Below, one piece after another: positions 3,674 to 7,181 of a DNA stretch of 64,000 nucleotides; the stretch's first letter is position 1, and the number at the start of each line of letters is the position of its first letter. The notes under the pieces are model-generated. The model ran no database searches. It saw only the letters and a list, made by a program, of their open reading frames with translations, and was not told where the DNA came from. Source of the DNA: Chitinophagaceae bacterium (GTDB taxonomy: Bacteria > Bacteroidota > Bacteroidia > Chitinophagales > Chitinophagaceae); contig JAOAGO010000007.1 of the NCBI GenBank assembly GCA_026415715.1, positions 1-64,000 of the forward strand. The letters are read 5' to 3'. Position numbers and translations under genes: made by a program.

Positions 3674-5020
3674 ATGAAGCGCATCTTTACCATAATTACC
3701 ATTTTGATTTCACTGTCGCTGGTGGGTATTATTATCAATCAAAATTCGGCCTTACGCAACATGATATTTCTGCGCCGGGAACAAATAAAATACAACGTAG
3801 AGCTAAGTACACGGATGGTGGCCGAAGAGTTATCAAGGCATAAAGGAGATAATGTTATGTCGCTGCCCAAAATGGGTACGGTTTTCCCCGATGAGTTTTC
3901 ATTAGACCTCTTCAGGCCGGTTTCCGTTTCCGGCCGATTTACGGTGGATCAGATCAGGGCAAAGTTTATTCATGCCTTCGAGCAGAATCACCTTGAAAAT
4001 ATTCCTTTTGAATTCGGTATTACTTCTTTTGACCGCCTGGGCAATATGGTTTTTGAAAAAGCCTCGCCGGGATTTCTGCAAGCCTTTCAGGATACGGTGA
4101 ATAGTTTTATTTACAACTGCGCCTTACAGGCACAAAGCGGCACCGCGGGCGAAAATCTTACCATTGACGAAGTGTTATTTGTGGCTATTCCGAATTTGAA
4201 TAAACTGGTATTAAAATCACTTTTCTGGCGTATTACCATTTCCATTCTTTTTACGCTGATTATTTTGGCCGCGTTTTATGTAACCGTACGCACCATGCTG
4301 GCGCAGAAAAAAATAGCGGAAATTAAAAACGATTTCATCAACAACATGACGCATGAATTTAAAACACCGATCTCCACTATTTCTTTAGCCGTGGATGCAC
4401 TGCGAAACGAAAAAGTAATCCAGGACAGGGAAAAAATGAATTTTTACAGCAGTATTATCAAAGAGGAAAATGAAAGAATGAACCGCCATGTTGAAACTAT
4501 CCTTAAAGCCTCTCAGCTCGAAAAGCAGGAAATCACTTTACATCATACACCCCTTTCTGTGCATTCCGTTTTGAAAGAAGCGGCCGATAATTTTAAACTT
4601 CAGCTGGAAGAAAAGAAAGGAAACATTGAATTTCATCTGAATGCCTCAAAGGATATCATAGAAGGCGACGAAGTTCATTTTTCAAACATGATCAATAATC
4701 TTATAGATAATGCTGTAAAGTATTCAAAAGAAACAGAGCCGCCCCAAATCAAGATCACGACAGCTTCAAACGGAAAGTTTATTAAAATAAAAATTGAAGA
4801 CAACGGCATTGGTATGAGCCGGGATACACAGAAACGAATCTTTGAAAAATTTTACAGGGCGCATACGGGAAATGTGCATAATGTTAAAGGTTTCGGACTG
4901 GGATTAAGCTATGTCAAGGCTATGACGGAAGCGCATCGGGGTAAAATCAAAGTAGAGAGTTCGCCCGGAAAAGGAAGCGTGTTCACGCTTGAAATTCCCC
5001 TGATGCAGCAAACGGTTTAA
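3674..5020 (+). CDS. sensor histidine kinase, orphan
   Basis: Membrane histidine kinase of 448 aa. It has an N-terminal membrane segment (about 5-22), a periplasmic sensing region of about 160 residues with no domain I recognise, a second membrane segment (about 185-206), then HisKA and HATPase domains. The phosphoacceptor is His227 in the H-box MTHEFKTPIS; the N-box (NLIDNAVKYS) is near 342-350, G1 (DNGIGM) at about 376, then IFEKFYR and G2 GFGLGLSYVK. No response regulator lies beside it or elsewhere in the window, so its partner is unknown. Its TAA and the stop of the convergent queA share the palindrome TTAA at 5017-5020. Confidence 0.95.
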   Translation: MKRIFTIITILISLSLVGIIINQNSALRNMIFLRREQIKYNVELSTRMVAEELSRHKGDNVMSLPKMGTVFPDEFSLDLFRPVSVSGRFTVDQIRAKFIHAFEQNHLENIPFEFGITSFDRLGNMVFEKASPGFLQAFQDTVNSFIYNCALQAQSGTAGENLTIDEVLFVAIPNLNKLVLKSLFWRITISILFTLIILAAFYVTVRTMLAQKKIAEIKNDFINNMTHEFKTPISTISLAVDALRNEKVIQDREKMNFYSSIIKEENERMNRHVETILKASQLEKQEITLHHTPLSVHSVLKEAADNFKLQLEEKKGNIEFHLNASKDIIEGDEVHFSNMINNLIDNAVKYSKETEPPQIKITTASNGKFIKIKIEDNGIGMSRDTQKRIFEKFYRAHTGNVHNVKGFGLGLSYVKAMTEAHRGKIKVESSPGKGSVFTLEIPLMQQTV

Positions 5021-6246
5021 CGCCACAACAAACTGCTGTCGCCATAGCTCAGAAAACGAAACTGATTTGTTAATGCGTACTCATACACCTTCTTCCAGTC
5101 TTTCCCGATAAATGCGGCAATGAGTAAAAGCAATGTGGATTGAGGTTGGTGAAAATTGGTGATGAGCCCATGGGCTACCCGTATGGTGTATCCGGGTGCA
5201 ATCAGCAGTTCAGTTTTTGCTCTGATGGCTTCAAGTCCGTTATAACTCATGTACTCAAGCAGCGCTTCCCATGATGCTTTCAGAGAGCAATGCTCATTTT
5301 GCAAATCGTAGGCTTCCCATTGAGAGAGGCTTAAAAAAGTGTCCCGTATTTTTTTTCTCCTGCAAACAATGCCCAGCCAGTATAAACTCTCCAGTGTGCG
5401 CAATGAAGTGGTTCCCACCGAAACAACGGGCTGCTCCCTTGAAGCATGATATAATGCTTCAATAACTTCTTTTTTTACTTCAAACCATTCGGCATGCATC
5501 TGATGGTCAATCAGGTACTTTGCCTTGACGGGTTTAAAGGTGCCGGCTCCCACATGAAGTGTAAGAAATTGACATTCTATCTGTTTTTGTTTCAGGTCAT
5601 CAAATACTCTTTTCGTAAAATGAAGTCCTGCGGTAGGCGCCGCTACCGATCCTTCATATCGGGCGTATAACGTTTGATAACGATCTTTATCAGCATCTTC
5701 TTCTTTGCGACGAAGATATGGAGGAAGCGGGGTAGAGCCGGCATACTGTAAAATTTCTGCGAAGCATAAATCATCAGGTTTCCACCTGAATTCAATGGTA
5801 AACGAATCTTCTTTTTTTTGCACAAATGAGGCGCTGAGCTGAATCGGAAATGATGCGGTTTCAATTTTCTTTGTCAATACTTGTCCGTGTTTCCATTTGG
5901 AAGCCTTGCCTATCATACATTGCCATAAAACACGACCTTTCTGCAACAGCGCCTCCGAATAATCGGCGTAGCAGGTATCCGGCTCAAGACAGAATATTTC
6001 AACCGTAGCCCCGGTGGGTTTTCTGAAATAAATACGGGCAGGAATTACTTTTGTATTATTGAAAATCAATAATGCATTTTCAGGTAAATAGCGGCTCAGA
6101 TTTCTGAAAATATCTTTTTGTATGTTTCCCTCACGGTAAATTAATAACTGCGAAGAGTCCCGCTCTTCCAGAGGATAACGGGCAATGCGTTCAGGAGGTA
6201 AATTGTAATCATATTCAAGTATGTTAATCAGCCGGGGATCAGTCAT
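5017..6246 (-). CDS. queA: QueA-family S-adenosylmethionine:tRNA ribosyltransferase-isomerase, long form
   Basis: QueA moves the ribosyl part of S-adenosylmethionine onto preQ1 in tRNA to give epoxyqueuosine. Family motifs are present in order: LLIFNNTKVIPARIYF, STPLPPYLRR, VAAPTAGLHFT, VGAGTFKPV, HQMHAEWFEV, VGTTSLRTLES, LITNFHQPQSTLL and FRFLSYGDSSLL. At 409 aa it is about 55-60 residues longer than the usual enzyme of about 350; most of the extra length sits between TTSLRTLES and IAPGYTIR (about 59 residues against about 19 in E. coli). This may be a functionally divergent paralogue. No other queuosine gene is in the window. A perfect -7 box lies 9 bases upstream, so the mRNA may be nearly leaderless. 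Confidence 0.88.
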   Translation of the reverse strand: MTDPRLINILEYDYNLPPERIARYPLEERDSSQLLIYREGNIQKDIFRNLSRYLPENALLIFNNTKVIPARIYFRKPTGATVEIFCLEPDTCYADYSEALLQKGRVLWQCMIGKASKWKHGQVLTKKIETASFPIQLSASFVQKKEDSFTIEFRWKPDDLCFAEILQYAGSTPLPPYLRRKEEDADKDRYQTLYARYEGSVAAPTAGLHFTKRVFDDLKQKQIECQFLTLHVGAGTFKPVKAKYLIDHQMHAEWFEVKKEVIEALYHASREQPVVSVGTTSLRTLESLYWLGIVCRRKKIRDTFLSLSQWEAYDLQNEHCSLKASWEALLEYMSYNGLEAIRAKTELLIAPGYTIRVAHGLITNFHQPQSTLLLLIAAFIGKDWKKVYEYALTNQFRFLSYGDSSLLWR

Positions 6247-6512: not shown

Positions 6513-6660
6513 TAATTCACAAGTAATACACATTAATTCACACTTAAATAACAGGTTATCTACATAAAATAATAAAAAAAACCTCAAAAATGAATTTTAT
6601 AAATTGAATATCAACTATTTATAATGGTGGAAAAATTTAAAAAAGAAAAATTTGGAAATT
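6513..6660. other. AT-rich intergenic region with phased DnaA-box-like repeats
   Basis: The 473-base gap 6247-6719 between the divergent queA and mraZ genes has no credible gene. It contains four 9-mers, each one mismatch from the DnaA box TTATnCACA: TAATTCACA (6513-6521), TAATACACA (6524-6532), TAATTCACA (6534-6542) and TTATCTACA (6556-6564). Their starts are 11, 10 and 22 bases apart, close to whole helical turns. Directly after them is a stretch of about 95 bases (6565-6660) with roughly 14 G or C. The arrangement resembles an origin with an unwinding element, or an operator for a cooperative DNA-binding protein. None of the boxes is a perfect DnaA site, so the origin reading is tentative. 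Confidence 0.35.
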
Positions 6661-6690
6661 AAGTGGGAAAAAGTGTTATTTTGTGTAAAT
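6661..6690 (+). promoter_or_regulatory. candidate MraZ operator, three 10-bp repeats
   Basis: Three direct repeats start at 6661, 6671 and 6681 (AAGTGGGAAA, AAGTGTTATT, TTGTGTAAAT). The shared GTG is exactly 10 bases apart each time. MraZ of E. coli binds TGGGN repeats with 10-bp period and mycoplasma MraZ binds AAAGTG-type repeats, both upstream of their own gene, so autoregulation of the dcw operon is a good inference. A -7-like TATTTTG (6677-6683, one base short of consensus) lies inside the repeats, so a bound protein would block transcription. Confidence 0.5.
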
Positions 6691-6719: not shown

Positions 6720-7181
6720 ATGATTGGTTTTCTTGGTGAATACGAAGCTACTTTAGATGCGAAGGGCAGATTTCTTTTGCCTGCCGCCTTCAGAAAGCAG
6801 CTTCCCGAAGAAGAGAGAAACCAATTTGTTATCAACAGAGGATTTGAAAAATGCCTGGCTCTTTATCCGATGAGTACCTGGAAGCCTTTGTTTTCAAGAA
6901 TCACCAGACTAAATGAGTTTGACCCGAGACAGAGAGAATTTAAGAGAGCTTTTTTAAACGGGGCAACCCTTGTAGAACCGGATACTGCAGGTAGAATATT
7001 GATACCTCCCAACCTTAAGGCTTATGCAGGCCTGCAAAAAGACTTAGTACTGATGGCCGCAGGCGATAAACTCGAAATCTGGGATAGTAGTAAGTACAAA
7101 GAGTTCTTTGATTCCATTTCTTCGGATGCATTAAGCGATTTGGCTAAGGAAGTACTTGGAGGTAATCTTTCGGACTCCTGA
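6720..7181 (+). CDS. mraZ: MraZ transcriptional regulator
   Basis: First gene of the division and cell wall cluster, 153 aa. MraZ is a DNA-binding protein built from two SpoVT/AbrB-like halves that assembles into rings and represses its own operon. Both half-motifs are visible: DAKGRFLLPAAFRKQL near residues 11-26 and DTAGRILIPPNLKAYAGL at about 90-107. The ATG at 6720 (MIGFLGEYEATLD) is chosen over a TTG six bases upstream. The candidate operator at 6661-6690 ends 29 bases before the start. Confidence 0.95.
   Translation: MIGFLGEYEATLDAKGRFLLPAAFRKQLPEEERNQFVINRGFEKCLALYPMSTWKPLFSRITRLNEFDPRQREFKRAFLNGATLVEPDTAGRILIPPNLKAYAGLQKDLVLMAAGDKLEIWDSSKYKEFFDSISSDALSDLAKEVLGGNLSDS

Follow-up and report, generated by a model that had tools for sequence, protein, structure and literature searches.

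A family-wide, helically phased array of DnaA-box-like repeats upstream of mraZ in Chitinophagaceae suggests DnaA control of the dcw operon

At the head of the dcw operon, between the divergently transcribed genes queA and mraZ, the window (the whole 64,000-nucleotide stretch of Chitinophagaceae DNA that was analysed, part of a metagenome-assembled genome) carries four 9-mers, all on the plus strand and every one of them a single mismatch away from TTATNCACA. The features of the region are as follows:

5017–6246, minus strand: queA, the divergent upstream neighbour, with no tie to the array
6513–6521, plus strand: DnaA-box-like unit 1, TAATTCACA; its array position is kept in Chitinophagaceae
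6524–6532, plus strand: DnaA-box-like unit 2, TAATACACA, 11 bp past unit 1; relatives have TTATCCACA here
6534–6542, plus strand: DnaA-box-like unit 3, TAATTCACA, 10 bp past unit 2
6556–6564, plus strand: DnaA-box-like unit 4, TTATCTACA, 22 bp past unit 3, in phase with one position skipped
6565–6660 (96 bp), no strand: AT-rich stretch, 85.4% A+T, not conserved among relatives
6626–6634, minus strand: inverted DnaA-box-like unit, TTTTCCACC, 37 bp upstream of the MraZ operator
6651–6654, plus strand: putative −33 element TTTG, inferred from a block conserved across family loci, 21 bp upstream of the −7 element
6663–6685, plus strand: MraZ operator-like repeats, GTGGGAAAAAGTGTTATTTTGTG, comprising three GTG units in steps of 10 bp, near-invariant in 77 family loci
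6676–6683, plus strand: putative −7 element TTATTTTG, inferred, conserved and lying within the MraZ operator
6720–7181, plus strand: mraZ (PF02381), first gene of the dcw operon

The steps of 11, 10 and 22 bp between boxes starting at 6513, 6524, 6534 and 6556 place all four on a single helical face, and adjoining boxes of the array are separated by gaps of 1–2 bp. A recount bore out the initial annotation on the positions of the boxes, their one-mismatch status, their common helix face and their location between divergent genes, as well as on the roughly 95 bases of about 85% A+T said to follow them, a composition that no other 96-bp segment of the 64 kb (sampled every 8 bp) matches. The four-box array is not a product of chance: scored with a position matrix for box chains that was trained on relatives alone, with the window left out, the three-box chain in the window reaches 27.9 bits, against maxima of 18.0 in 100 first-order Markov resamplings of the 64 kb and 17.6 in 2000 resamplings of the local gap. 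The runner-up site in the window scores 12.9. In the 2.63-Mb genome TAATNCACANNTAATNCACA occurs a single time, and TTATNCACA is found 131 times against 60 for the pattern read backwards, an approximately twofold excess.

Just upstream of mraZ, the direct GTG repeats at 10-bp steps have the form of an MraZ operator as known from the dcw cluster, where it consists of direct repeats (AAAGTG[T/G] in Mollicutes; PMC8475190). The DnaA-box array is a separate, additional element, located farther upstream and reading in the opposite direction. Within the operator, TTATTTTG and, 21 bp upstream of it, TTTG resemble the −7 and −33 elements of a Bacteroidota promoter.

We compared the regions upstream of mraZ in members of the genus and in 80 named loci of the family. 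Of 77 loci, 75 reached a matrix array score of at least 15, a level that no shuffled control attained; since the matrix was trained on these same loci, the independent test of conservation is a mismatch count, in which 9-mers with at most one mismatch from TTATNCACA were tallied in the zone 165–90 bp before the MraZ operator of 73 loci. This zone holds 155 boxes on the same strand and 3 on the opposite strand (control zone: 3 and 4), and the distances between successive boxes are exclusively 10, 11, 20, 21, 31 or 32 bp. Whatever the upstream gene, the distance between the array and the MraZ operator downstream of it is near-fixed; because the array is retained both with queA adjacent (35 of 37 loci) and without it (37 of 37), it belongs to mraZ. 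The units and spacing first seen in the queA–mraZ gap are thus conserved within the family, and the prospect raised in the initial annotation, that the repeats might have no counterparts in relatives, did not materialise. In 71 of 77 loci, the other strand bears TTTTCCACA, TTATCCACA, TTATCCCCA or TTTTCCCCA at exactly 37 bp upstream of the MraZ operator, a block that could be an extra MraZ unit (TGTGGAAAAA) instead of a DnaA box.

The mraZ array also stands out within single genomes: in the relative G021 it is the top array in the 400 kb scanned (30.6 versus 19.5 for the second), and a genome-wide search for perfect box pairs in four genomes (G073–G076) recovered the mraZ site, as the sole match in three of the four. 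Beyond these loci, 20 further families or genera of the order essentially lack the phased array, with one weak match on the opposite strand, although single inverted boxes do turn up again close to the MraZ operator. Several members of the genus (L005, L007 and L017) share an imperfect inverted repeat of the type AAACCCTTT-loop-AAAGGGTTT, located after the DnaA array and ahead of the inverted box; this repeat is absent in the window. Away from mraZ, an identical 18-mer, TGTGGATTTTATGTGAAT, with two DnaA-like cores 11 bp apart, is present at G061:C1:428216 and G062:C1:2034601.

Whereas the boxes of the window are all imperfect DnaA sites, perfect TTATCCACA boxes are present in many relatives, which marks the motif as that of DnaA and the three TAAT boxes of the window as a degenerate copy; their shared deviation is more plausibly a result of drift than the mark of another protein's site. 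The overall interpretation in the initial annotation therefore held in part: the family-wide units, their phase and the perfect TTATCCACA copies uphold DnaA-type boxes, and the proposed origin reading found no support (see below).

The boxes occupy a fixed place relative to the promoter, as expected of a promoter regulated by DnaA. With an origin unlikely at this site, so constant a placement with respect to promoter and operator speaks for control at the level of transcription, and we consider it probable that DnaA assembles on the phased array and, together with MraZ, controls transcription of the dcw operon. An operator for a cooperative regulator of this operon, which the initial annotation had offered as its second reading, is what survives, with DnaA as the likely regulator. 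Several DnaA molecules would bind cooperatively and head to tail along one helix face, approximately 120–180 bp upstream of the inferred start site, and the resulting oligomer would contact, or loop to, the inverted box approximately 60 bp upstream of that start. Bound DnaA would then alter the output of a promoter that is autoregulated by MraZ through the overlapping operator, and division-gene expression would track the state of DnaA in the course of the replication cycle. We lean slightly towards activation, given that the array sits on the upstream side of the promoter. Counting against DnaA control, the boxes of the window are all imperfect, the array is farther upstream than a classical activator site, and the block at −37 is similar both to an MraZ unit and to a DnaA box. 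A broader proposal, possible but advanced here only tentatively, is that throughout the family a trio-less, promoter-borne DnaA oligomer switches the dcw operon, such that the ATP/ADP state of DnaA would time the genes for division and wall synthesis, either competing or acting in concert with MraZ.

How bacteria couple the initiation of replication to division is a long-standing question. The conservation of the array suggests that a whole family may tie the expression of its division genes to DnaA, and an array of fixed geometry at the dcw promoter makes such a direct link testable in Bacteroidota through ordinary promoter mutation.

Among known systems, DnaA activates ftsZ and mipZ in Caulobacter (PMC3193534), and the promoters of these genes in Caulobacter crescentus similarly present DnaA boxes at cell-division promoters away from oriC. 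There, however, one or two boxes are found at individual genes (PMC3193534), whereas at mraZ three to four same-strand boxes in strict phase, accompanied by an inverted box, precede the whole dcw operon, next to an MraZ operator and in a different phylum. In Thermotoga, DnaA binds with the greatest cooperativity to boxes that share an orientation and are separated by 2 bp (PMC10316083), a gap close to the 1–2 bp of the mraZ array, and the closely spaced boxes of the DnaA oligomerisation region in the Thermotoga maritima oriC likewise suit head-to-tail DnaA oligomers. That region lies beside TAG trios in the unwinding element and is an origin (PMC10316083), whereas the mraZ array has neither conserved trios nor a skew switch. 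A literature search returned no report of DnaA boxes at mraZ, nor of an oriC at nadA, in this group, which is weak evidence of novelty as the search covered a minority of the subscription literature. DnaA control of division genes is already known from Caulobacter; the architecture for which we found no report is the combination of a phased same-strand array, an inverted box and an MraZ operator.

Clustered, phased DnaA boxes located away from oriC are also the typical look of sites for DnaA titration or nucleotide exchange. The array might be such a site, of the datA/DARS type of E. coli, that lies beside mraZ by chance and tunes initiation instead of transcription: it is removed from the putative oriC, and elsewhere in these genomes the boxes that lie outside oriC seldom form clusters. 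We nevertheless regard this as unlikely, since the array holds a set geometry with respect to the promoter and operator of mraZ, an arrangement for which a titration site has no need.

It is quite improbable that the array serves a different reader, be it MraZ itself or another regulator preferring TAATNCACA. The reverse complement of the array does yield GTG-containing units at 10–11 bp, and the GTG units of MraZ are likewise spaced at 10 bp; in addition, the TAAT common to three boxes of the window had been taken in the initial annotation as a possible sign of a different binding protein. However, the first half of the relatives' matrix (T 0.79, T 0.74, A 0.92, T 0.98) is that of the DnaA nine-base consensus, and this consensus in relatives makes a separate protein reading TAATNCACA unlikely. 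As for MraZ, its units (GTGGGAAAAA) are without the first-half consensus of DnaA, and the array runs in the direction opposite to the operator.

That the array is the chromosomal origin, with DnaA bound at the boxes and melting the neighbouring AT-rich stretch, is very improbable: the site is probably not oriC, since it shows no skew switch, its AT-rich stretch is not conserved, relatives have no strict trios, and a better candidate exists upstream of nadA. A conserved DnaA-box cluster, as an oriC should have, is indeed present at mraZ, and in the window the boxes adjoin AT-rich DNA, with skew near zero to the left of the site and positive to the right; in several genomes, dnaA and dnaB lie within ~100 kb of mraZ. 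However, skew is positive to the left of mraZ in 38 of 43 family loci, and hence there is no change of sign. As the window's genome is in 96 contigs, the skew switch was judged in relatives, and the skew minimum that an origin at this locus predicts lies elsewhere in both G021 and G059, an outcome that the initial annotation had named as counting against its origin reading. In G021 the cumulative-skew minimum is at 348 kb (400 kb examined), with mraZ at 173 kb; along the 2.88-Mb contig of G059, most skew samples fall below zero in the first 1.35 Mb and above it from ~1.5 Mb on, which puts the switch near 1.4–1.5 Mb, with mraZ at 0.58 Mb. GC skew in Chitinophagaceae is weak and tracks gene strand; it is weak in G060 and, in G062, a mosaic that follows gene strand, and neither of these two genomes was informative. 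Next to the boxes, relatives average 64.6% A+T, and none of 77 reaches 80%. Strict DnaA-trios (at least three TAA/TAG repeats beside a box) are found at mraZ in none of 78 relatives; the published trio rule is looser than this count, and the window's AT-rich stretch passes it trivially, as would almost any AT-rich DNA.

The probable oriC of the genus is the gap upstream of nadA, which in the window's genome is:

G000:C3:7646–8195 (L323): nadA gap, carrying TTTTTCCACAAATTCACACCCATAATAATAATAG, with a dnaN-like gene (named by eye from its sequence, without a family search) 4.5 kb away

An array scan found a match at G059:1,432,674, where nadA and its upstream neighbour diverge, and thereby within the skew transition of that contig; the exact skew minimum of the contiguous 400 kb in G059 is at 1,372,225. 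Throughout the genus (L276–L305), the nadA gap contains several boxes at similar positions; their number is typically five to ten, and both orientations occur. Origins of the basal unwinding system resemble the mraZ site in that DnaA boxes adjoin AT-rich DNA (PMC8287927), but a box followed by at least three TAA/TAG trios (TAATAATAA-type), which no relative has at mraZ, is found in the nadA gap of 20 of 27 genomes. The commonest trio layout there, two tandem boxes and then TAATAATAATA(A/G), is the basal unwinding layout described in PMC8287927. On the nadA contig of G021, skew changes only gently, from flat to slightly positive, and its minimum is 135 kb away. A probable oriC for the family in the nadA gap would be useful for building replicating plasmids and for estimating growth rates from metagenomes.

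Other candidate origins were set aside. Among 11 genomes, the region upstream of dnaA shows no consistent box cluster. Near the skew transition of G059, the top box cluster (1,477,706) has its first boxes within coding sequence, and we found no gene neighbourhood common to this cluster and the skew minimum of G021. The dnaB promoter has no box cluster in the genus, nor is it a point of skew switch in G021. Upstream of dnaB, 29 of 30 genus loci (L246–L275) have one perfectly conserved inverted TTATCCACA, which in the window's genome lies ~330 bp upstream of the gene (L272, G000:C26). This makes dnaB a likely second DnaA-controlled promoter, and the conserved box suggests that the genus may have a small DnaA regulon.

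Elsewhere in the window's genome, a 148-aa open frame (L143, G000:C11:68136–68435) matches only the C-terminal, DNA-binding part of DnaA in TIGR00362, at a score below the cut-off. Six DnaA-like boxes are clustered in a divergent dnaB–pheT gap at ~82.6 kb of G072:C1 (L240). In a sister family, ~15–20 DnaA boxes fall within less than 1 kb (L233, L235 and L236; G046:C36, ~3.2–4.0 kb), flanked by a secreted-protein gene and a HAD-hydrolase gene, and this cluster looks like the oriC of that genome, at a different locus.
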